Shown: piece by piece, positions 9,330-48,010 of the stretch | Numbering within the stretch: position 1 is the stretch's first letter | How the letters are laid out: each line of letters begins with the position of its first letter | Assembly: GCF_024721305.1 (NCBI RefSeq) | Contig: NZ_JAMXOD010000003.1 | Location: 124,001 to 188,000 of the forward strand | Source: Aequitasia blattaphilus | GTDB lineage: Bacteria > Bacillota > Clostridia > Lachnospirales > Lachnospiraceae | DNA: 64,000 nucleotides | Reading direction: 5' to 3' | Notes under the pieces: generated by a model | What the model saw: the letters and a program-made list of their open reading frames with translations, nothing else | Told to the model about the DNA's origin: nothing | Database searches by the model: none | Made by a program: the position numbers and the translations under genes

Positions 9330-11582
9330 CTATTCTTCCTCCGTGCTTCTCAACAAAAAATTTCTCATCTTATCAATTACTTCATCCACTTTTATCGGCT
9401 TGGTGATGTAATCATTCATTCCAGCGTCAAATGCCATCTCCACATTCTCATCATACATACATGCTGTCATTGCAACAATTGGTATGCTTGCCGCCTCGTC
9501 AATATCCAATGCCCGTATCGCCCTTGTCGCCCCATATCCATCAAGGTTTGGCATATGTACATCCATAAAAATCAAATCATATTTCGGATTATTTTTAAAC
9601 TGCTTAACCACCTCTTCACCATCAAAAGCAAAGTCAATTTCTATGCCAGTATCTTTTAGTAATGCTTTCAGAATTTCTCTGTTAATCATCATATCTTCCG
9701 CAACTAATATCCGATTTTTCATAAAAATTCCTCTTCGATTTTTCTTTGTTTCCGATTCTTTTTCATCCTGTTGACTGCCCAAAACCACCTGGACACAGTC
9801 CACAATAAAAGAGGGAAAAATCGGTCTACCAAGATGAACCTTTGCACCTGCTTCAAAAGCAGCATCTCTATTTTCCCGCCATAATGCATCATTCATTATC
9901 ACTGCAAGATTCTCTTGATTGTATTTTTTATTTAACCTGTTAGTAAATCGAAAGCCATGCTCTTCAATGGAACGATAATCAATGAAAATTAGTGAAAATT
10001 GTTCTCCGGCTTTTAGAAGCTGTTCTGCCTCTTCCTTTGTATCTGCTAAAGTACAACGAGATCCAAATTTCACCAAAATATCTTGAAATCCATAGCGCTC
10101 ATCTCCAAAATCTCCAATAATAAGAAACTTAAGCTTTTCCCATGAAAGACTTGACTCCTCCGTGTTAATATCACTTTGTGTTCCTTTTTTTATTTGAATT
10201 GTGAAAATAAAATTTGCACCTTTTCCTTCTTCCGACTCAATCCAAATTTTTCCGCCCATTCCTTCGACAATACTCTTACAGATTACCAGCCCAAGACCTG
10301 TACCTCCAAATCTTCTTGATATACTGCTGTCGGCCTGTTGAAATGCCTGGAAAAGCTTTTCCTGCTGCTCTTTGGAAATACCAATTCCTGTATCCTTGAC
10401 TTCAAAACGCAGTGTCAATTTGTCATCCTTTTCCCAATCCTTATGAACCACCAAATCAACGCGTCCAGATTCCGGCGTAAACTTTACAGCATTCGAAATT
10501 AAATTTGCAATCACCTGGGTAAGTCTTTGCTCATCTACAAACAAAGAATCCGGTACATCTCCATCTACTTTTAGTACAAATTCCTGCTTTTTGGCTTCTA
10601 CTGTAAAGGTGGTAATCGTCACTACTTTCTTAAGAATTTCTTCTAACGACGCCTCCACAGGTACAATTTCAAATTTTGCAGACTCAATCTTCGAAACATC
10701 TAAGATATCATTAAGCAATCCCATCATGTGCTCTGCAGCGCCACTAATCTTCTCCAAATACTGTTTAATCTGCTCCATAGCCACACTATCTTTCGCCAAC
10801 TGGCTCATACCAATGATGGTATTCATCGGCGTTCTGATTTCATGACTTATATTCGATAAAAACATTGTCTTCGACTGACTTGCCTCTTCCGCTTGTACAA
10901 CTTTACTTCGATACATTATTAAAGCCAAGCCACAGGCTAATATAATTACAATAAGGGCCACCAAAAGAAGAATTGCTTGAGAATAGGCATTGCTTTGGGC
11001 CTGATGAATATAAATATCTTTTTTATCAACTCCGGCTACTATATTAGACATTTCACCATTGCTATAATAAACTGGTGCATACGCAGTCAAGTAATCTGCC
11101 CAGCCTTCTGAATAAGTTCCCAATGGAACTGTATTGGCTGTTCCCTCCAATGCCAAATCCGGATAAGGCTCTCTTTCCACCTGTTCTTCAACCAATCCCG
11201 TTTCCATTCCTGGTATATTGTCAATAATAAACTGCATCTTATTTGTTTTCGTATCCAACCGCAAATAATACGCATAAGCCAAACCTGAGTCTTTACAAAA
11301 AACCTCCAGCTCCTCTTTCATTTCCTTATAATTTTCTTTGTCCATATCCCCAACAGTCATGAATTCATCCAGTTCATCTGCTGTTGTCATTAATGCCACC
11401 GTTTTGCTAAGAGCCAACATCTCATTCATAGATGTCTCTTCAATAACTCTCGTTGCATTTCCGGCACGAGTAAGGGAAACTCCCGCAACTCCTATCACCA
11501 CTAAAATCAAGAAAATAACTAAGATTAAAAAAACAGGTTTGTAACTTCTCTTCTTCATGTGCCCTCCATTGCCTGATTCCAT
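9330..11582 (-). CDS. Membrane hybrid sensor histidine kinase with extracellular sensor and two receiver-like domains
   Basis: A 750-residue protein. A signal anchor (about residues 16-34) and a second helix near residues 200-222 enclose an extracellular Cache-like sensor. Then come HisKA (phospho-His in NISHEIRTPMNTI), HATPase (NLISNAVKFT, DTGIGIS, GGTGLGL), a divergent receiver-like domain (~490-610; its start IIGDFGDE lacks the usual acidic pair) and a canonical receiver (ILVAEDMMIN, IFMDVHMPNLDG). Two starts are possible: ATG at 11582, with GAGG 8 bases upstream inside the end of the previous gene, or ATG at 11558 (MKKRSYKP), with GGAGGG only a few bases away. The second gives a more typical signal anchor. 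It sits 3 bases after the secreted membrane protein gene, which may be its sensing partner. Confidence 0.9.
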   Translation of the reverse strand: MESGNGGHMKKRSYKPVFLILVIFLILVVIGVAGVSLTRAGNATRVIEETSMNEMLALSKTVALMTTADELDEFMTVGDMDKENYKEMKEELEVFCKDSGLAYAYYLRLDTKTNKMQFIIDNIPGMETGLVEEQVEREPYPDLALEGTANTVPLGTYSEGWADYLTAYAPVYYSNGEMSNIVAGVDKKDIYIHQAQSNAYSQAILLLVALIVIILACGLALIMYRSKVVQAEEASQSKTMFLSNISHEIRTPMNTIIGMSQLAKDSVAMEQIKQYLEKISGAAEHMMGLLNDILDVSKIESAKFEIVPVEASLEEILKKVVTITTFTVEAKKQEFVLKVDGDVPDSLFVDEQRLTQVIANLISNAVKFTPESGRVDLVVHKDWEKDDKLTLRFEVKDTGIGISKEQQEKLFQAFQQADSSISRRFGGTGLGLVICKSIVEGMGGKIWIESEEGKGANFIFTIQIKKGTQSDINTEESSLSWEKLKFLIIGDFGDERYGFQDILVKFGSRCTLADTKEEAEQLLKAGEQFSLIFIDYRSIEEHGFRFTNRLNKKYNQENLAVIMNDALWRENRDAAFEAGAKVHLGRPIFPSFIVDCVQVVLGSQQDEKESETKKNRRGIFMKNRILVAEDMMINREILKALLKDTGIEIDFAFDGEEVVKQFKNNPKYDLIFMDVHMPNLDGYGATRAIRALDIDEAASIPIVAMTACMYDENVEMAFDAGMNDYITKPIKVDEVIDKMRNFLLRSTEEE

Positions 11583-11585
11583 TCC

Positions 11586-12866
11586 CTATTCCTCGTACAA
11601 GTTTCTTTGAATCTGTCGGCGCATTCTTTGTGCCTTTTTCCTCTTCTTTGCTCTTTGAATCTTTAAATGCTGACGATACAGTAATGCAGCACATATTCCA
11701 ACTGCGAAAACAAATAGAAAGAAGAAGGTAACACGAAAATATTTTACTTTTTTGTAAATCACCTCAATACTATGAGATCCCTCTATCTTTGTAAAAGTAA
11801 ATGCTTTATCCTTTTTGTTATACTCAACAGCCTTACCATCGACACGAACTTCCGAAATCTTTTGTCCTTTTACCTCTTGGTAGTCAATCGAGATTTTTTC
11901 TCCCTGCAAAACCTTTTGTATATCCTTCTTTTCTTTCCCTCCAACAGTCTGTATTACCTCCAGCTGTTGATAATAAGGTACTTCCGTTTGATAAAATCGT
12001 ACTTTACGCTCCTGCGTATCCTCTACAACATTTACCGCTGCCAAAAACTTTCCCGGACCAACCACACAGATTGACTCTGGTTCATCCCAAGTTATATTTT
12101 CAAACTTAAAATCCAACTGTGTAGAAGACACAATATCCCTTGCTGAGATGGAGTACATATTAATAAAAGAGCCAATCCCCATACCTGCTGTCAAAGGGAA
12201 ATTAACGATATAGTCACCTGACACACATAAGTCCTGGAAATTGTCGCCTTGTGAGGTATGACTAAAAGACCCTAAGTCATCTGTTATCTGAAAATCAGAG
12301 TTTAAAATTTTGAAACTATATCCACCTTCGTCATTTGTTTGAATTACATATTGATCCGTTTCTTCATCGTAGCCAATTCCTAAAACATTAAAATCATCCG
12401 CTATTTTAATCCGGTCTTCATACTCAAAAGTTTCGCTATTGAGCACATACAAACAGCCTCTGTTCTCCGGATCTGCCGCTGTATATAAGCTAACCAATAT
12501 TTTCTTGGTCTTGGGATTATACGTCATTCCATTACAATGCTCATAATGAATAGAATCAATCCTTTTTGCCAAAGAATACTGCTCGACCTTGTTTCCATTC
12601 TCATCCTTATTGTTTCGGTAGTACGCCCTTAGAATATCTGGTGTATCTACTGTATCATCCTTGTTTTCCAAGGTAACAATATAATCTTCCGTCACACAGA
12701 CAGATTGCACAAGTCCTTCTTCCAGATTTTCCTCAAATAACAATTCCCATTCGCTGCCTTCAAAGACAGACTCATCTGCAATTTCAGCATGTACTGTTTC
12801 TGGTCTGATCACCATTAATAACGCAATAAAAATCAGAACTATCCCTAACTGTTTCGTCCCCTTCAT
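11586..12866 (-). CDS. Secreted, membrane-anchored protein of unknown function (propeller-like ectodomain)
   Basis: A 426-residue protein with a cleavable-looking signal peptide ending near VHAEIA (about residue 27), a large ectodomain, one membrane helix at about residues 383-403 and a short basic cytoplasmic tail rich in Lys and Arg. The ectodomain contains repeated strand-turn patterns such as RAYYRNNKDENG, GCLYVLNSETFEYED and GGYSFKILNSDFQI, suggesting a beta-propeller, followed before the helix by a small beta domain (ISEVRVDGKAVEY). I do not recognise the family with certainty. It is the second gene of an operon and lies 3 bases before a hybrid kinase whose sensor domain is on the same side of the membrane, so a receptor or co-receptor role is a reasonable inference. 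AGGGGAG lies just before the ATG. Confidence 0.7.
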   Translation of the reverse strand: MKGTKQLGIVLIFIALLMVIRPETVHAEIADESVFEGSEWELLFEENLEEGLVQSVCVTEDYIVTLENKDDTVDTPDILRAYYRNNKDENGNKVEQYSLAKRIDSIHYEHCNGMTYNPKTKKILVSLYTAADPENRGCLYVLNSETFEYEDRIKIADDFNVLGIGYDEETDQYVIQTNDEGGYSFKILNSDFQITDDLGSFSHTSQGDNFQDLCVSGDYIVNFPLTAGMGIGSFINMYSISARDIVSSTQLDFKFENITWDEPESICVVGPGKFLAAVNVVEDTQERKVRFYQTEVPYYQQLEVIQTVGGKEKKDIQKVLQGEKISIDYQEVKGQKISEVRVDGKAVEYNKKDKAFTFTKIEGSHSIEVIYKKVKYFRVTFFFLFVFAVGICAALLYRQHLKIQRAKKRKKAQRMRRQIQRNLYEE

Positions 12867-41125: not shown

Positions 41126-41132
41126 AAGATTG

Positions 41133-41168
41133 AGAGGTCGGTAGGTGATTATTCCCCTACCGACCTCT
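41133..41168. terminator. Bidirectional terminator at the left edge of the accessory island
   Basis: AGAGGTCGGTAGG (41133-41145) pairs perfectly with CCTACCGACCTCT (41156-41168). The plus side lacks a clean T-run, but the minus side is followed by TCTTTTATT, so it probably ends the island operon as well. Confidence 0.75.
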
Positions 41169-41196
41169 TAGTCTAAATTGATACAACTAATCCCTT

Positions 41197-42261
41197 TCAC
41201 TTTAGGTTACCTTTCAACGCACACTTTCTGATCCCTACAATGTACATAATATTACATAAACATAGCAATGATATAGTTTTTAGCCAAACAAAGCAATAGT
41301 AAAGCTCTGATGAAGATTTTGACATTTTGAACATAATAATTAATGTGCTGAATTGTTCCGAAAAGAAAGAACTCCAAAAACTAAAATCAGACCATCTAGT
41401 AGGTATATAATCCTCTGGAATACTCACTCTTTTAAATATAAGTATTATAAATACTATCATAAAAACCAATAAACCAGCACTCCAAAAAAAATATTCTTTC
41501 TTTTTATTTGATGCATTTCTCACATTTTTTATTAGCTCAGTCATTAAATGACAACCTATAATTATTGGAAACAATAAACTTACCAGTTCAATACTCTCCG
41601 TAAGCAAAGAATATCTCAAAATGGTTCCTGTAATACCATACTGTGTCTCCATCTTCCGTTGTATTTCTTTTTCTGATGTTTTTGCATCAGTCCTTATTGT
41701 TATTTTCTCTAATCCTATAACTTCACTTGAATCACTTTGCACAATAAGAGTATCTTTAGCATTTTCTAATACTCCTTTAACTTGATAGGCTTTATTATTA
41801 TAGATTAACTCAACTTCACTGACTTTTTTACTGCCGTATAGTTCCATTGCCGTATTCTCGTCAATTAGACATTGATTATAATCACCCCGATCTAACCATG
41901 GACTATTTGAGAAAACCAAATCGGTTCTGCCATTCATAACTAAAATCTCAACGTCTTTAGATCGATTCAAATCACTATTGGTCACTACTGCATTTCCTAA
42001 GCTCCCCCATATCACAAATGCTTTCTGGTTTTCTAATTCCGAATTGTAGTCTTGAATTTCTTTCGCCCGATTACCGGTTATTGCACTACCATCACAAAGT
42101 AATGTGCATAAATCATCCAAACCTCTCATGTATTGCTGATATTTCATAGCATGGGACATAATTCCAAATGTGATTATCAACATCAAAATTTTAATGATTA
42201 TTATGTAATTAGCTTTCCTTAAATTGTTATAGGAATTATTTACAAACGATTCTACTATCAT
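41197..42261 (-). CDS. MacB/FtsX-like ABC exporter permease
   Basis: A 354-residue membrane protein with one helix near the N-terminus (about 19-38), an extracellular domain of about 180 residues, and three helices near 222-245, 268-288 and 318-345. This is the four-helix layout of FtsX/MacB permeases. The segments CLIDENTAMELYGS and YQVKGVLENAKDTLIV resemble the MacB periplasmic core domain. Such permeases work with a LolD/MacB-type ATPase to export or expel peptides or lipids using mechanical movement. It overlaps the adaptor gene by 4 bases (ATGA) and is last in the operon. No intact ATPase gene accompanies it. Confidence 0.7.
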   Translation of the reverse strand: MIVESFVNNSYNNLRKANYIIIIKILMLIITFGIMSHAMKYQQYMRGLDDLCTLLCDGSAITGNRAKEIQDYNSELENQKAFVIWGSLGNAVVTNSDLNRSKDVEILVMNGRTDLVFSNSPWLDRGDYNQCLIDENTAMELYGSKKVSEVELIYNNKAYQVKGVLENAKDTLIVQSDSSEVIGLEKITIRTDAKTSEKEIQRKMETQYGITGTILRYSLLTESIELVSLLFPIIIGCHLMTELIKNVRNASNKKKEYFFWSAGLLVFMIVFIILIFKRVSIPEDYIPTRWSDFSFWSSFFSEQFSTLIIMFKMSKSSSELYYCFVWLKTISLLCLCNIMYIVGIRKCALKGNLK

Positions 42262-43550
42262 AATATTTTTCTCTTTATACGACTGCCATCTTCAATGGCT
42301 TTACTGGTTTCAACAACTATTTCACTATCAACAGGAATACTTTCACTATCAACTGCTATCCATTTGTCGTTCTTATCAATAACATTTACAGCTATTTTTT
42401 TTGCAACTAATTCTTTTCCTAGTACCGTTTCTTTCTCTTTTATAACCAGCACATAATACTTATTAGATGCATCTTGACGCAAAGCATCTAGCGGAAAGCA
42501 TAACTCATAAATATATGACTGATTTTGCAAAGTGATATTTACTATCGTCCCGACCTCATATGTCCCAGATGGGACATTTACGCTTATGTTGTAATACTCC
42601 GGTTGTTCGTGGTTTAACTGCATGCTATTTATTGATAAATTTTCGGTTATGACTTCTGTATCATTACGCAATGATTCCATTTTTATCTTTGTTTTATCAC
42701 CTATATATTCACTAACTGTCGCTGGGACTTGTGCCTTTGCAAGTAAATCTGAATCTAAGTCACCTAGTATCACTGTGCCTGCTTCAGTCGTCAGCGATCC
42801 CACCTTTCCAATAATTTCATTAACAATCCCCTTCTCAGGAGCCTGTATTTGACCATTGTTTTTTTGTAATTCTAATAATCTATTTAATTGTTCCTGTTCC
42901 GTAATTTCATCGGCCAATTTATCCGTACTATCTGAATTAACCTCAACATCTTCAAGAGTTCTTTTCGCATTAAGTATTATAGTTTCTCTTTCTTCTAATG
43001 ACACCTCATAGGCTGTTTCCAGCTCCCTAAAAGTACTATAAAGACCCGAAGCATAAGAGTCGTCATACTCATCGCCTGCATTTGCTATATAATTTTCATA
43101 CGTATAATAAGCTTCATTTTTGGCGTTTTCAGCTCGCGAAACTATAGCGTCTCCTTGTGCAACAGCACGATCATAATCCTCTTTAGCACGCTCTTTTTCA
43201 ATACTTTGTTTTTCTTCTTTATTTGATAAACTACCTTGTAATTGCTCTATTTGACTTTTTAATTTTTCTTCATCAATAGTAAATAAGACCGTTTTTTCAT
43301 CAACCATTTGTCCCTCACTAACATTAATAGATTTAATTAACTGGTTTTCTACCGTAGTGATAACGATTTCTTTACTCGTTGTAATTTGCCCCTGCACTTT
43401 TATATCATGGGAAATCTTTTGCCTTTCCAAGGTATTAACAGTTACTTTTGCCACCGATAAGTTATCTGCTGTTCTAGAGATAATTGTAAAAGCTATCATA
43501 AATAATAAAAATATTAATGTTGCTTTAACAACTCTTTTTTTTGTATCCAT
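42258..43550 (-). CDS. HlyD/MacA-like membrane-fusion (adaptor) protein
   Basis: A 430-residue protein with an N-terminal membrane helix (about 10-27), the first half of a lipoyl-like domain (GQITTSKEIVIT, INVSEGQMVDEKTVLFTID), a long Glu/Lys-rich coiled coil (about 95-235), the second lipoyl half (GQIQAPEKGIVNEIIGKVGS, then ILGD) and beta-barrel and membrane-proximal domains. In Gram-positive bacteria such adaptors pair with MacB/FtsX-type ABC exporters for bacteriocins or antimicrobial resistance. It sits between the two MalFG-type permeases and the MacB-like permease. AAGGAG precedes the ATG. Confidence 0.82.
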   Translation of the reverse strand: MDTKKRVVKATLIFLLFMIAFTIISRTADNLSVAKVTVNTLERQKISHDIKVQGQITTSKEIVITTVENQLIKSINVSEGQMVDEKTVLFTIDEEKLKSQIEQLQGSLSNKEEKQSIEKERAKEDYDRAVAQGDAIVSRAENAKNEAYYTYENYIANAGDEYDDSYASGLYSTFRELETAYEVSLEERETIILNAKRTLEDVEVNSDSTDKLADEITEQEQLNRLLELQKNNGQIQAPEKGIVNEIIGKVGSLTTEAGTVILGDLDSDLLAKAQVPATVSEYIGDKTKIKMESLRNDTEVITENLSINSMQLNHEQPEYYNISVNVPSGTYEVGTIVNITLQNQSYIYELCFPLDALRQDASNKYYVLVIKEKETVLGKELVAKKIAVNVIDKNDKWIAVDSESIPVDSEIVVETSKAIEDGSRIKRKIL

Positions 43551-43555
43551 TATAA

Positions 43556-44395
43556 TTACTCCTTCTTTGTCACTACTGTAATACCTTGTTCCAAATATCC
43601 TCTACCAAATACAAACACTAATCCACACGGAACAAACGCAATAATAGAAGTTACAAATGCTATTCCAATTTCCTCAATAGAAATATTCGGCAAAAATAAT
43701 GACATTGGCCATAACGTCTTGTCTTTTAAAAAGGCTAATGGTTGTTCAATTAAATTCCAATATTCCAAAAATCCTAAGACCAAGGCCGAAATAATCCCCT
43801 GTTTTCCTAGTGGTAATCCTATATATATAAATACCTGAAAATCATTGGCACTTTCTAATTTCGCAGCTTCAATAACCTCATTAGGTATCTTAGAAAATAG
43901 ATGCTGCATAATAAAAATCGGAAACGTTGAAAAAATGCACGGTAGAATTACGGAGAGATGTGAATCAACCAAAGAAATCCTGTCAAACACCAAGTATTCC
44001 GGCAACATTAAGACTTGAAAAGGCATTAACATTAACACAATATATACAAAGTAAATTACCTTTTTTAAAGGAAACGTATATTTCGCCAATCCCCAGGCCG
44101 CTGGAATCGCAATTATCATTTGCCCAACTAGAATTACCATAACAATTTTTATAGAATTCCAAAACATCACAAAAAAAGATGGGGCATCTACTAGTAATTC
44201 AATGTATGATTTCAAAGAAAAATTCCACGGAAATAATCCCCAACTCGCATAACCTTCGCCATCTATAAGAACCGGCGATAAATAACTATATAACATATCG
44301 CTATTCATGAAAGATCCCACTATCAAAAAAACAACCGGGTAAGCTGCTATACCCGCAAGTAAACACAATATAAACAAAATCACTTTATTCTTCAT
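43556..44395 (-). CDS. MalG-type ABC importer permease
   Basis: A 279-residue membrane protein from the ATG at 44395, chosen because AAGGA lies 9 bases upstream; upstream ATGs overlap the previous gene and lack a ribosome site. It has six helices and the EAA coupling loop EAAKLESANDFQVFIYIGLP near residue 180. The loop is slightly unusual (ESA for the common DGA). This is the carbohydrate-uptake 1 family inner permease that pairs with a MalF-type partner and an MsmX-like ATPase. It starts 5 bases after the MalF-type gene. Confidence 0.85.
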   Translation of the reverse strand: MKNKVILFILCLLAGIAAYPVVFLIVGSFMNSDMLYSYLSPVLIDGEGYASWGLFPWNFSLKSYIELLVDAPSFFVMFWNSIKIVMVILVGQMIIAIPAAWGLAKYTFPLKKVIYFVYIVLMLMPFQVLMLPEYLVFDRISLVDSHLSVILPCIFSTFPIFIMQHLFSKIPNEVIEAAKLESANDFQVFIYIGLPLGKQGIISALVLGFLEYWNLIEQPLAFLKDKTLWPMSLFLPNISIEEIGIAFVTSIIAFVPCGLVFVFGRGYLEQGITVVTKKE

Positions 44396-44400
44396 CTCTG

Positions 44401-45264
44401 TCATTCCTTCGTGTTCCAACATTTATATAGTGCCACGATTGGAACCAGAAGTATTATTGATAAGAGCGTTGCTCCTGCTGACATTTTCTCAATATCTAAA
44501 TCTCGAAACCAATTATTAAATAGATGTTGCAGCATATATATACTCTTATTGGGATAATCACCAGCTAATAGATACGCTTCCCTGAATATTTTAAACGAAT
44601 TAATAATAGATATTACCATTGTGACAAATAGTGTTGACCTTAAATTTGGCAGTGTAATATAGCAAAAGCATTCCTTGTCCCCTGCACCATCAACACGAGC
44701 CGCCTCATATATTTGCTTTGGAATAGTCGAGAGACCTGCAAGCCATAATACAATACTATATCCCAAATTTTTCCACAAATAACTGAACACTAAAATTCCA
44801 AATGAATATTTACTATTTATCCAATCAACGCCTTTAATACTAAATGTATTGAATATCCCATTAAGAAATCCCTGATCATCAAATAATAGTCTCCACAATA
44901 ATACAATAGAAACTACCGGTATGGATAAAGGAAACAGAAAAATACTTTTAAACGTATTTGTTATTGCAGCTACATGTTCATGAAGATAAACAGCAATTAT
45001 TAACGAAAGAACAAGCAATATAGGTATACATGTAACAATAAATTTCAGACTATTATACGCTGCTAATTGAAAAGAATCATTAAGAATCACTCTCTTGAAA
45101 TTGTCAAATCCTACGAACTTTCTGTTCCAAACATTTATAAATGCGTAGAAAATAACATTTATGTATGGGATAACTAATATACATATTACACCGATTAGAC
45201 TCGGTAACATAAAAATAAGTCCGACCGTTTTCTTCCTTTTACCATTTCTACGATTCATTTCCAA
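44401..45264 (-). CDS. MalF-type ABC importer permease
   Basis: A 287-residue membrane protein with six helices and a canonical EAA coupling loop EAARVDGAGDKECFCYITLP near residue 190. A TTG start at 45264 has AGGGAAG at good spacing; ATG at 45258 is the alternative. The ribosome site lies inside the remnant of an ABC ATPase gene, which overlaps the start by 17 bases, so the ATPase was once the upstream translational partner. It forms the permease pair with the next gene. The propeller-SBP lipoprotein upstream is the expected solute receptor. Confidence 0.85.
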   Translation of the reverse strand: MEMNRRNGKRKKTVGLIFMLPSLIGVICILVIPYINVIFYAFINVWNRKFVGFDNFKRVILNDSFQLAAYNSLKFIVTCIPILLVLSLIIAVYLHEHVAAITNTFKSIFLFPLSIPVVSIVLLWRLLFDDQGFLNGIFNTFSIKGVDWINSKYSFGILVFSYLWKNLGYSIVLWLAGLSTIPKQIYEAARVDGAGDKECFCYITLPNLRSTLFVTMVISIINSFKIFREAYLLAGDYPNKSIYMLQHLFNNWFRDLDIEKMSAGATLLSIILLVPIVALYKCWNTKE

Positions 45265-45351
45265 CTATTCTTCCCTTTTTTAATGTTATAGTCCTGTCAC
45301 ACATATCTACAATTTTCTTGTTATGGGAAATAACAATACATATTTTTTTCC
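45248..45351 (-). pseudogene. C-terminal remnant of an ABC transporter ATPase
   Basis: Between the solute-binding lipoprotein and the MalF-type permease, the minus strand in the +1 frame relative to the lipoprotein encodes about 34 residues, including KKICIVISHNKKIVDMCDR and TITLKKGRIVGNES, then a stop at 45250-45248. This is the typical end of an ABC ATPase: the switch His (ISHN) and the DRTITLKKGRIV strand found in LolD/MacB-type proteins. Walker A, signature and Walker B are absent. Just after the lipoprotein stop, AAGGA and an out-of-frame ATG remain and may be the original start signals. The simplest reading is an internal deletion that removed about 85% of the ATPase. Confidence 0.8.
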
Positions 45352-47610
45352 TTATTCTTGATTGTATATATTGATTTTTTCCATTATTTCACTAACTACA
45401 GAGCTAACAGCTATATCTCCAGCTAATGAATTTCCCGCACTCTCCAATATTACTTTCTTTATGTATGAGTCTCTTAATATCGGTTTATTTAACTCTTCAA
45501 AATGACTTACAAATTTATCCGCTTCACTTTCTGTATAAGGATGTATTTGGAATCCAGTAGTTTCGTCAATATTCGTATAAACATTGTGTCTATCATCTTG
45601 TAAACAAACTTTTAGTGCTTCTTTATTATTAGGAAACCCTGTAATATTATCGTTACTTTGAACCTTTTTCGACATAGTAAAATTTATAAATTTTTTTGCC
45701 AATTCGCCTTTCTTACTTGCTGCGCTAATGCCTAAAATACCTGCTGGAATATATACTTTCTCACTATTGTCGCTAAGCAAACAATATTCTTTTGATTCAT
45801 CAGCATTAGTAATTTCATTTAATATTGGGATAAGCTTCACAAAATCAACATAGTCAAATGTAATCGCCCTATCATCTGCAACCCAGTTAAAGTAATTAAC
45901 TGTTACATAGACACCATTCTTCTCTGCACTATTGTTTCTCCAACTATCACTTAATTCCGGATATCCACATTTACTATATAATGTTCTAATACAAGAAATA
46001 TATTCAGTTAATAGTTTTTCCTCAATTTCAGTGTCTGTTCCTATCATTGGTTCAACATATGAAGAATAAAGAAATTCCATCATCTGCATGAATTCTTCTT
46101 CACTATAGTTCATTTGATTGTCTACTTTTTTGATGTACTCTTCAATAGCCGAAATACTATCGCTACTCTCCCCAAGCCCTACTTCTCCCTCTAATGCAAG
46201 TAATACAATTCTACTCGGCACTGCTAAGATTTCGTCTTCAGAGGATTTGAATTGCTCAACCACATTTGCAAAATATTTATCAGCTTTGATAGTTTCAGCC
46301 AAATCCATTAGCAGCCCTTTCTCCATATAGGAGGTATATGGCAAATCATCTAGGACTAATATATCAGGCCCCTTGTTGGTCATTATTTCTGTGTTTAAAT
46401 TTTTAATTACATCTGTTTCTGTAGCAATATTACCATCTGATATTCCCACCTTGTAGTTAACCTTAATATTCGGATATTCTATTTCAAAAGCATTTATTGC
46501 CAATTCAACATTTTGGTTATTATAAAGCGAATATATTGTTAGTTCTTCTTTTACACTCTCCTCATCTTTTTCCGTTGTATCCATCCAATACATAGAATAT
46601 TGATTAGATTGCATGTTTATTGCTATTAGATATAAATCTTTGTTATATACCTCAGCATCCAAAATATATTGCTGCAGTAGCTCTCCTGCACCCTCTCCCT
46701 TCAAATCACAAACTTGCTCTACGCCATTCTCAGCATTCCTAAACAAGCCGAAACTATTGAACACATATAATTGTTCTCTTTCATGTTTAAGAACGATATT
46801 GCTTTCAAATGAAGGAATGGATTCCTTCACATATGTATTATTCAAACGATCTATTAACTCATCATCTTCATTTTCTTCCCCAGTATTCATATCCCATGAT
46901 AATATTTCATGATTAGTCGCCATTAAAATCATATCATTGTATTGAGAACAACCTAAAATATATCCATGGTTGTTTTCATAGGACTTGTTAATTTCTCCAT
47001 TTTCTATGTTTATATAGTGTAAATCAAAATTCTCATCCATTGCCAAAAGATTCCCGTCATCAGAAAATTCCGTATTCAAAATATAATTGACTGCACTTTC
47101 TGGCAACCATTCAAATTCTTCATTATGCTCCCTTTTTGCCTTGTCTATCTCTGGCAATTTCAAATTAACAGGCACTATTTTACTCTCCTTCATATAATAG
47201 TATTTAGCGCCTTCAACGCCTCCATCCTCATTATATTCTAGAGACTTCCAAAAAATTTCGTTACTTTTCGAAGCATATGCTCCCACTTTTTCATTTTCGG
47301 CTTTTTCAAACAAATCTGTGGAATTGTAAGCTTCTTCCCACGTATTCCCTTTATCACCTGAATCATAAATTGCAACCTCATTACCTATAGTCGCTACTAG
47401 CCGCAATATTCCGTCTTCCATAACAACCATATCAAAGACCGTGTCAATATTTTCCGGTAACAATAATTCTTTAATTTCTTCACTTCTATCTATTTCTTTC
47501 GATGCATTCTCTTTATTAGCCTCATCAAAACCAGTACATCCTGACAACATTCCACATACTGCCAAAATAACACTTATTATTAGTGCTAACCTTGTTTTTG
47601 TAACATGCAT
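45352..47610 (-). CDS. Lipoprotein with propeller-like N-terminus and extracellular solute-binding C-terminus
   Basis: A 752-residue exported lipoprotein (lipobox LSGC, Cys at about residue 25). Residues ~50-340 carry short strand repeats typical of beta-propellers, including an Asp-box-like YDSGDKGNTWEE, and GNLLAMDENFDLHYINIENG. From about residue 355 the protein reads as a family-1 carbohydrate-type solute-binding domain: EELTIYSLYNNQNVELAINA, FEIEYPNIKVNYKV, GPDILVLDDLPY, a C-terminal SKKGELAKKFINFTMSKKVQ and NKEALK. Ordinary sugar-binding lipoproteins are about 420-450 residues without the propeller. It is the first intact gene of the operon. The ligand is unknown; the propeller could bind a polymer or a peptide. 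Confidence 0.8.
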   Translation of the reverse strand: MHVTKTRLALIISVILAVCGMLSGCTGFDEANKENASKEIDRSEEIKELLLPENIDTVFDMVVMEDGILRLVATIGNEVAIYDSGDKGNTWEEAYNSTDLFEKAENEKVGAYASKSNEIFWKSLEYNEDGGVEGAKYYYMKESKIVPVNLKLPEIDKAKREHNEEFEWLPESAVNYILNTEFSDDGNLLAMDENFDLHYINIENGEINKSYENNHGYILGCSQYNDMILMATNHEILSWDMNTGEENEDDELIDRLNNTYVKESIPSFESNIVLKHEREQLYVFNSFGLFRNAENGVEQVCDLKGEGAGELLQQYILDAEVYNKDLYLIAINMQSNQYSMYWMDTTEKDEESVKEELTIYSLYNNQNVELAINAFEIEYPNIKVNYKVGISDGNIATETDVIKNLNTEIMTNKGPDILVLDDLPYTSYMEKGLLMDLAETIKADKYFANVVEQFKSSEDEILAVPSRIVLLALEGEVGLGESSDSISAIEEYIKKVDNQMNYSEEEFMQMMEFLYSSYVEPMIGTDTEIEEKLLTEYISCIRTLYSKCGYPELSDSWRNNSAEKNGVYVTVNYFNWVADDRAITFDYVDFVKLIPILNEITNADESKEYCLLSDNSEKVYIPAGILGISAASKKGELAKKFINFTMSKKVQSNDNITGFPNNKEALKVCLQDDRHNVYTNIDETTGFQIHPYTESEADKFVSHFEELNKPILRDSYIKKVILESAGNSLAGDIAVSSVVSEIMEKINIYNQE

Positions 47611-47644
47611 ATTAAAGTTTTCCCCTTCCCATTGCTATATAATC

Positions 47645-47680
47645 ATGGAGTGTAAACATCTCATCCTGCTTACACTCCAT
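47645..47680. promoter_or_regulatory. Intercistronic hairpin before the propeller-SBP gene
   Basis: ATGGAGTGTAA (47645-47655) and TTACACTCCAT (47670-47680) form a perfect 11-base-pair stem without a T-run on the minus strand. It lies between the peptide-gene remnant and the lipoprotein gene, where bacteriocin operons often carry an attenuator or mRNA-stabilising structure. Confidence 0.6.
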
Positions 47681-47692
47681 GCATACAGTCTT

Positions 47693-47869
47693 CTAGACTC
47701 CGTACATATACATTCTGCCATCTGCAAATGGACCGCCACCTCTGTATGCTTCCCATACTTTCCAGCCTGAACTGTAATAATGTGTTATTCCACCTTTGCT
47801 TAAATAGTATTGTCTGCAATGATAGCCACCATTAAGCTTATTACCGCTCTTGAATATATGTCTTTCTTT
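47693..47869 (-). pseudogene. 3' end of a bacteriocin-like (possibly lactococcin-972-type) peptide gene, no start codon
   Basis: An open minus-strand frame of 58 codons bounded by stops at 47872-47870 and 47695-47693. It encodes a Gly-, Tyr- and Trp-rich end, including GGYHCRQYY, GGITHYYSSGWKVWEAY, RGGGPFADG and RMYMYGV. The run of GW..W.A followed by Gly-rich residues and a final Tyr pair resembles the C-terminus of lactococcin-972-type bacteriocins as I remember them. There is no usable start codon or signal peptide: the predicted promoter sits directly upstream and the transcript would begin at the frame. The gene therefore looks 5'-truncated. Family assignment is tentative; another small secreted protein is possible. 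Confidence 0.45.
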
Positions 47870-47877
47870 TTACAAAA

Positions 47878-47906
47878 AGATTATCACTCTATGTTTATAA
47901 TGTCAA
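47878..47906 (-). promoter_or_regulatory. Promoter of the accessory island operon
   Basis: On the minus strand consensus TTGACA (47906-47901), 17-base spacer, TAATCT (47883-47878). It lies downstream of the glk terminator, so the island is transcribed independently. Confidence 0.65.
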
Positions 47907-47951
47907 GTTTATATTTTTATATATATTTCTTTTGGTGTCTGTCTCCGCATT

Positions 47952-47986
47952 AAAAAAAGAAGATCGACGCAATTGCGTTAATCTTC
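47952..47986 (-). terminator. Terminator of the ftsH-uvrC-hprK-glk operon
   Basis: On the minus strand GAAGAT and ATCTTC pair around a second stem ACGC/GCGT (internal mismatch TA/CG), followed by seven T (47958-47952). Confidence 0.85.
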
Positions 47987-48010
47987 CTTTTTACTATATT
48001 TCACTTAAAA

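Follow-up and report, generated by a model that had tools for sequence, protein, structure and literature searches.

A five-gene block combining CUT1-type importer genes with an adaptor and a MacB-like protein recurs in Lachnospiraceae genomes

Importers of the CUT1 group (MalEFGK2/UgpBAEC) combine a family 1 solute-binding protein (SBP) with two BPD_transp_1 permeases that carry EAA-type loops and with a UgpC-type ATPase. In the YknWXYZ and Gram-positive MacAB systems (type VII ATP-binding cassette (ABC) transporters), a MacA/RND_mfp-type adaptor is paired with a MacB-type protein that has an outer domain and four transmembrane helices. In class II bacteriocin loci, peptide genes occur with a C39-peptidase exporter. 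To our knowledge, adaptors of this kind are known as exporter parts. Here, we describe a block of five minus-strand open reading frames (ORFs) that joins genes of the first two kinds. It lies at positions 41197–47610 of a 64,000-nucleotide stretch of Aequitasia blattaphilus (assembly GCF_024721305.1, contig NZ_JAMXOD010000003.1, positions 124,001 to 188,000 of the forward strand; hereafter, the window). This gut-type bacterium, whose genome comprises 3.2 Mb in 60 contigs, has a single copy of the block. In an ORF reading of the window the frames are packed tightly, with overlaps or a few bases between them save for an 87-base gap behind the first:

45352–47610, minus strand: binding lipoprotein of 752 amino acids (aa), with lipobox Cys25, an N-terminal Asp-box propeller-like part and a C-terminal oligosaccharide-type SBP domain
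44401–45264, minus strand: MalF/UgpA-type permease with an EAA loop (BPD_transp_1, GlcT/UgpA models, alignment)
43556–44422, minus strand: MalG/UgpE-type permease with an EAA-like loop (BPD_transp_1, UgpE model, alignment)
42258–43550, minus strand: membrane-fusion adaptor, MacA/RND_mfp-like, 430 aa (TIGR01730, profile against PDB)
41197–42261, minus strand: MacB-like membrane protein, 354 aa, with a MacB-like outer domain, four predicted helices and no FtsX domain

The five-gene arrangement is real and recurs far beyond chance. The original prediction, made from the sequence of the window, had set repeated co-occurrence of the five genes as its own test beforehand, and the surveys bear it out. 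When the MacB-like protein was searched against 98 genomes, 16 matched at E ≤ 0.001 (source genome included), and all five genes were present in 18 of 18 distinct loci outside the source genome. A second survey, with a MalG alignment against named genomes, returned 587 relatives, the best 80 of which were kept and scored for completeness by profile models on six-frame translations. Of these best 80 loci, 67 are complete; 79 have the adaptor and 74 the MacB-like gene, and those six that lack the MacB-like gene all stop ≤170 bases from a contig edge. Another 32 loci were chosen by MacB-like matches (G474 and G239 included), and 29 of them are complete. After removal of nine duplicates, 105 of 121 loci from other genomes hold all five genes on one strand, 83 of the 121 have the exact gene order of the window, and in four the two modules, both kept, have changed places. 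The 16 incomplete loci comprise 10 cut by contig ends, five without a binding protein and one (L024) with the binding protein on the opposite strand.

Named carriers include Neglectibacter, Lactonifactor, Faecalicatena, Coprococcus catus, Blautia, Clostridium celatum and Paraclostridium ghonii. The block is patchy within the family and rare beyond it. At E ≤ 1e-15, a model of the MacB-like protein matches 40 of 299 genomes in the family and 3 of 291 sampled from the class, the source genome being counted in both. Across the phylum, 106 of 398 genomes match at E ≤ 1e-5, all of them below 50 bits except G474 and the source genome. Twenty of the weakly matching genomes among these 106, chosen mainly from the higher-ranking ones, were used as controls. 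In 18 the MacB match adjoins a LolD-type ATPase (17 of the 18 also with an adaptor), and the other two (L248 and L249) are distant members of the system with the order SBP-MalF-MalG-adaptor-MacB-like-MalK, which have only the phylum in common with the window genome.

In the features examined, the importer side of the block agrees with a CUT1 importer, save for the ATPase gene missing from the window block. The binding lipoprotein matches SBP_bac_1 (E 2e-6, above the cut-off), and its AlphaFold2 model has a mean predicted local distance difference test (pLDDT) score of 84.5. Among the 50 Foldseek matches listed for this model, most are CUT1-type sugar-binding proteins or MBP fusions (CbpC, 1.9e-14). 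A profile of the protein compared against PDB relates the C-terminal domain to CbpC (2.9e-25) and the N-terminal part to sialidase Asp-box propellers. This propeller-like part is unlike CUT1 importers, as are the added adaptor and MacB-like protein. MalF matches BPD_transp_1 (1e-14), with the GlcT and UgpA models below the cut-off, and MalG matches BPD_transp_1 (8e-11) and, below the cut-off, UgpE (1.6e-20). The family, fold and PDB matches thus support the predicted combination of a propeller-fused binding lipoprotein with MalF- and MalG-type permeases.

No MalK/UgpC-type ATPase gene is present in the window block, and a motif scan of 130 loci revealed no ABC ATPase frame inside the block, LolD-type frames included. 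A UgpC-type ATPase gene lies directly behind the block in five loci (L030, L102, L182, L248 and L249), and in L181 one lies 1.4 kb upstream. At E ≤ 1e-80, a UgpC-type ATPase was detected in 19 of the 20 carrier genomes tested, including the source genome, whose one such gene over the cut-off is outside the block; the lone carrier without it is 74% complete. For G237 (the L248 genome), the block ATPase is the sole match to the UgpC model genome-wide at this threshold. Other variations were seen within the block. At least three tandem binding-protein genes precede MalF in each of L092, L096 and L115, and a 211-aa ORF with no Pfam or NCBIfam match lies between the binding protein and the adaptor in L030 (the G048 locus, 11190–11822).

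The adaptor matches the RND_mfp family TIGR01730 (3.5e-16, below the cut-off), and its profile against PDB finds the RND membrane-fusion protein 6vej (1.1e-18) and the MacA-type 4dk1 (1.4e-14), in agreement with the predicted HlyD/MacA-like adaptor. The MacB-like protein, which has a conserved IPxxWSDFxFW segment, matches MacB_PCD of Pfam weakly (E 0.0054, below the cut-off), and YknZ is its best solved sequence relative by profile against PDB (E 5.2e-6). Its AlphaFold2 model (mean pLDDT 92.1) retrieved MacB periplasmic regions (3ftj, 1.2e-8) and the YknZ outer domain (5f9q, 1.2e-6) in Foldseek. The protein had been called a MacB/FtsX-like permease; the MacB-like outer domain stands, but the FtsX domain is missing. 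PF02687 was found in 0 of 64 MacB-like relatives versus 6 of 6 scanned control MacB proteins (6 of the 18 control proteins were scanned), and PF12704 in 28 of the 64 relatives and, above the cut-off, in all six scanned controls. In a divergent subgroup (L209, L211, L248 and L249), PYWEN replaces WSDF and two helices are predicted.

The features that couple MacB to its motor are missing as well. The N-terminal MacB motif was detected in 0 of 117 relatives versus 15 of 18 controls, and the MacB motif in the loop between transmembrane helices 2 and 3 (TM2 and TM3) in 0 of 117 versus 14 of 18. These 117 are stop-to-stop frames of >850 nt and >100 bits from the 130 loci, with the nine duplicates included. 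Hydropathy on 108 of them (L037 and L111 being one locus) indicated that seven lack both TM2 and TM3 and two have one of them; the TM2–TM3 gap has a median of 16 aa in 99 relatives versus 26–38 aa in 16 of 18 controls, and in the window model the connection is four residues. Four helices are predicted by hydropathy for the window protein, as in the MacB family, one to five for its relatives and four for 17 of 17 controls. It is between TM2 and TM3 that the major coupling helix of MacB sits, as an excerpt of PMC5985334 describes. From these sequence features, namely the missing FtsX domain and coupling motifs and the short TM2–TM3 connection, we infer a MacB relative uncoupled from an ATPase. 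By membership, the block is not a MacB or YknWXYZ system, given that it has no LolD/YknY-type ATPase, no FtsX domain and no coupling features and is tied to a sugar-type importer.

The expulsion role originally proposed for the MacAB-like part is not supported: the motif scan of 130 loci detected no ABC ATPase within the block, the MacB-like protein lacks the FtsX domain and the coupling motifs, and the ATPase attached in five loci is of UgpC type. We favor, with a rough probability of 0.45, an explanation in which the five proteins form one ABC importer-type complex, with a motor-less MacB relative holding the adaptor over a sugar-type importer. In such a complex, the binding lipoprotein would capture an extracellular ligand, oligosaccharide-like by fold, and pass it into the MalF/MalG channel. 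Import would be driven by a MalK/UgpC-type ATPase, whose gene, depending on the species, would be at the block end or at another place in the genome. The MacB-like protein, no longer ATP-driven, would keep its outer domain as a membrane-held dock for the adaptor. Such docking is suggested because the YknZ outer domain directly binds YknX, according to an excerpt of PMC4887032. The adaptor may then form an extracytoplasmic collar or funnel that unites ligand, binding protein and channel across the wall zone. A more specific version, a tripartite importer in which the adaptor would serve as a conduit leading inward and would dock on a MacB relative without its former motor, is tentative, at roughly one chance in three.

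Expression of the complex may often be set by an adjacent OmpR-type two-component system. A response regulator and a kinase are located upstream in 41 of the 70 complete loci that have at least 2.5 kb of upstream sequence, and a regulator or kinase gene lies on any side in 56 of the 70 (a single typed regulator and a single typed kinase served as BLAST queries; duplicates retained). The ORF list of the window shows no two-component system alongside the block.

Several points weigh against a single importer complex. Gene linkage can reflect co-regulation instead of one complex, and the sugar-type fold of the binding protein does not prove a sugar ligand. The strict EAA pattern was matched by 95 of 123 MalF and 69 of 129 MalG proteins. 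Five of the 121 loci have no binding protein despite upstream sequence (L067, L097, L107, L109 and L203), and two of these (L107 and L109) lack MalF as well. The structural likeness of the MacB-like protein is partial, with template-modelling scores (TM-scores) by target of 0.36–0.59 for the outer-domain superpositions and poor full-length superpositions (root-mean-square deviation 14.6–21.5). The motif counts are crude, as 3 and 4 of the 18 controls fail them too, and so is hydropathy, with 22 of the 99 TM2–TM3 gaps ≥27 and helix predictions spread from one to five. A LolD-type ATPase might work in trans; in L249, a LolD-like gene is located ~3 kb away from the one for the MacB-like protein. 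Other ABC genes also occur directly upstream of the binding protein in some loci, namely a CydC-like exporter in L201 (14721–16475) and a partial lantibiotic-protection-like ATPase in L117 (2642–3253), both below the cut-off, and C39 exporters accompany the block in two relatives (G594 and G1009). A scrap of an ABC ATPase gene in the window, described next, fits an FtsE-like ATPase as well as it does a C39 exporter, so a LolD/FtsE-type motor gene may have been lost.

The setting of the block in the window includes the following further features:

45251–45388, minus strand: scrap of an ABC ATPase C-terminus, a stop-to-stop frame and not a working gene (ABC models, best 1.7e-4)
47693–47869, minus strand: possible double-glycine peptide remnant of uncertain identity (LNGG, no start codon ahead)
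47906–47901, minus strand: TTGACA hexamer, claimed as a promoter (absent from the promoter-scan sites)
41127–41174, no strand: hairpin, probable terminator, between the block and pbp1A (22-nt arms, 86% complementary)
47953–47992, no strand: palindrome between the ROK kinase gene and the block (24-nt arms, 88%)
41126–48010, no strand: stretch that two congeners lack between pbp1A and the ROK kinase gene (genome comparison)

The block is AT-rich, as predicted, with a GC content per kb of 0.30–0.35 within 41–48 kb versus 0.37–0.41 in the 5 kb on each side; kilobases at 0.35–0.37 also occur in the first 6 kb of the window. In the congeners G001 and G002, pbp1A directly adjoins the ROK kinase gene, the block is missing and no MacB-like match was found at E ≤ 0.001, so the block was probably gained in the window genome or lost in the congeners. 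The window block is probably an acquired copy that lacks the adjoining two-component system. Spread by plasmids was considered and rejected, as the adaptor had no match in a plasmid collection. The proposed transcription unit agrees with the five close minus-strand ORFs and with the hairpin and palindrome at the boundaries, but its own promoter was not confirmed. The TTGACA hexamer is present, but the promoter scan reports nothing there, and promoter-like sites in the region are no commoner than in shuffles (34 versus 35.8).

Three alternatives were weighed. In the first, an antimicrobial or signal peptide would be recognized by the binding protein and removed or taken up by the complex, and the window copy would come from a bacteriocin locus; we consider this improbable. 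It draws on G594, in which a 79-aa double-glycine ORF, a C39-peptidase ABC exporter and two DUF6273 lipoprotein genes follow one another upstream of the block, and on G1009, in which a C39 exporter 62% identical to that of G594 stands immediately ahead of MalF, on a contig that stops before any binding-protein gene. In L262 (7833–9531), tandem DUF6273 lipoprotein genes, two in number, are located between the C39 exporter and the binding protein, and in L265 a partial DUF6273 frame adjoins the exporter. The exporter is intact in G594 and G1009, and the window has no intact C39-peptidase exporter, its ABC ATPase scrap between the binding protein and MalF being at the position of the G1009 exporter. 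A MalF+MalG tree (128 rows) places the window as sister to G594 with a support of just 0.66. The lantibiotic-protection-like ATPase of L117, below the cut-off, and the protection that YknWXYZ gives against SDP toxin, as stated in an excerpt of PMC4887032, point the same way. On the other side, the C39 domain was found in 0 of 132 stretches (that of G594 started inside the exporter gene, and G1009 was found via its exporter), and nine other genomes of 397 in the family have exporters merely 34–38% identical, counted by identity alone. The block resembles class II bacteriocin loci in the exporter beside it in two relatives and differs from them in that no exporter was found in the other scanned loci and no bacteriocin or immunity gene was recognized in the window block. 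The scrap, which several ABC models match, is also unspecific, and the odds were reduced for that reason: it scores 32.3 bits with the G594 exporter, 32.0 with the FtsE-like ATPase of the source genome and 31.2 with the G1009 exporter. Its assignment as the end of a C39 exporter therefore depends on its position and a weakly supported tree, and a motor gene of LolD/FtsE type may once have been present. The bacteriocin-like remnant at 47693–47869 has the LNGG double-glycine-like motif, but no ATG, GTG or TTG ahead, no family-model match (a Lactococcin 972 identity was dropped on this ground) and no convincing relative among 120 genomes of the family, the best other match (E 0.0016) having an internal stop. 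No relation to the G594 peptide was detectable (997 of 2000 shuffles score equally high), and a small-ORF scan, whose pattern missed the known G594 ORF, gave seven chance-like matches in 130 loci and two in 17 controls. A bacteriocin peptide as a general part of the system is thus unsupported by the relatives, by this weak scan and by the G594 comparison. PADLOC models gave no match to any of the five proteins of the window block, and anti-phage defense was rejected accordingly. What survives of the suggested peptide defense or immunity role is a link limited to a few loci, with the C39 exporter in two relatives and the L117 ATPase; for the window it depends on where the scrap lies and on the weak tree.

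In the second alternative, also unlikely, the block would keep two distinct transporters side by side, namely a sugar importer and a MacAB-like unit for efflux whose LolD-type ATPase is borrowed from elsewhere. Adaptor and MacB are a usual pairing, as in the controls with a MacB gene beside an ATPase (18/20, 17 with an adaptor). Seven loci (L041, L066, L073, L074, L081, L087 and L113), several from Blautia, have a LolD-adaptor-MacB set upstream of the block, and the window scrap could be the remainder of an FtsE/LolD-type ATPase. However, the FtsX domain and coupling motifs are missing, the TM2–TM3 connection is short, and linkage to MalFG is near-constant, even in another class (L248 and L249). 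Least probable, and by our estimate very unlikely, is an export or envelope-building machine in which MalFG and their ATPase power the outward movement of a product through the adaptor. The best-matching relatives of solved structure of the adaptor do belong to exporters, but a sugar-fold binding protein is kept in most loci and the window MalF and MalG have EAA-type loops.

Among the open-access papers listed in our searches, we found no description of this five-gene layout (titles and abstract openings; subscription papers and preprints were outside the scope), in line with the original prediction, which knew of no described system of this kind. The transporter is thus apparently undescribed, and its novelty is provisional. 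The block is found repeatedly in named genera (for example, Blautia, Faecalicatena and Clostridium), with the MacB-like gene in more than a tenth of the sampled family genomes (40/299). Should the five proteins assemble into one complex, this would join two normally separate types of machine and show what a MacB-type outer domain does without ATP. If the tripartite importer is true, adaptors would serve uptake too, and an ABC mechanotransmitter would have been turned into a structural subunit. For uptake or envelope sensing by common anaerobes, the block offers a defined set of genes that can be put to the test.

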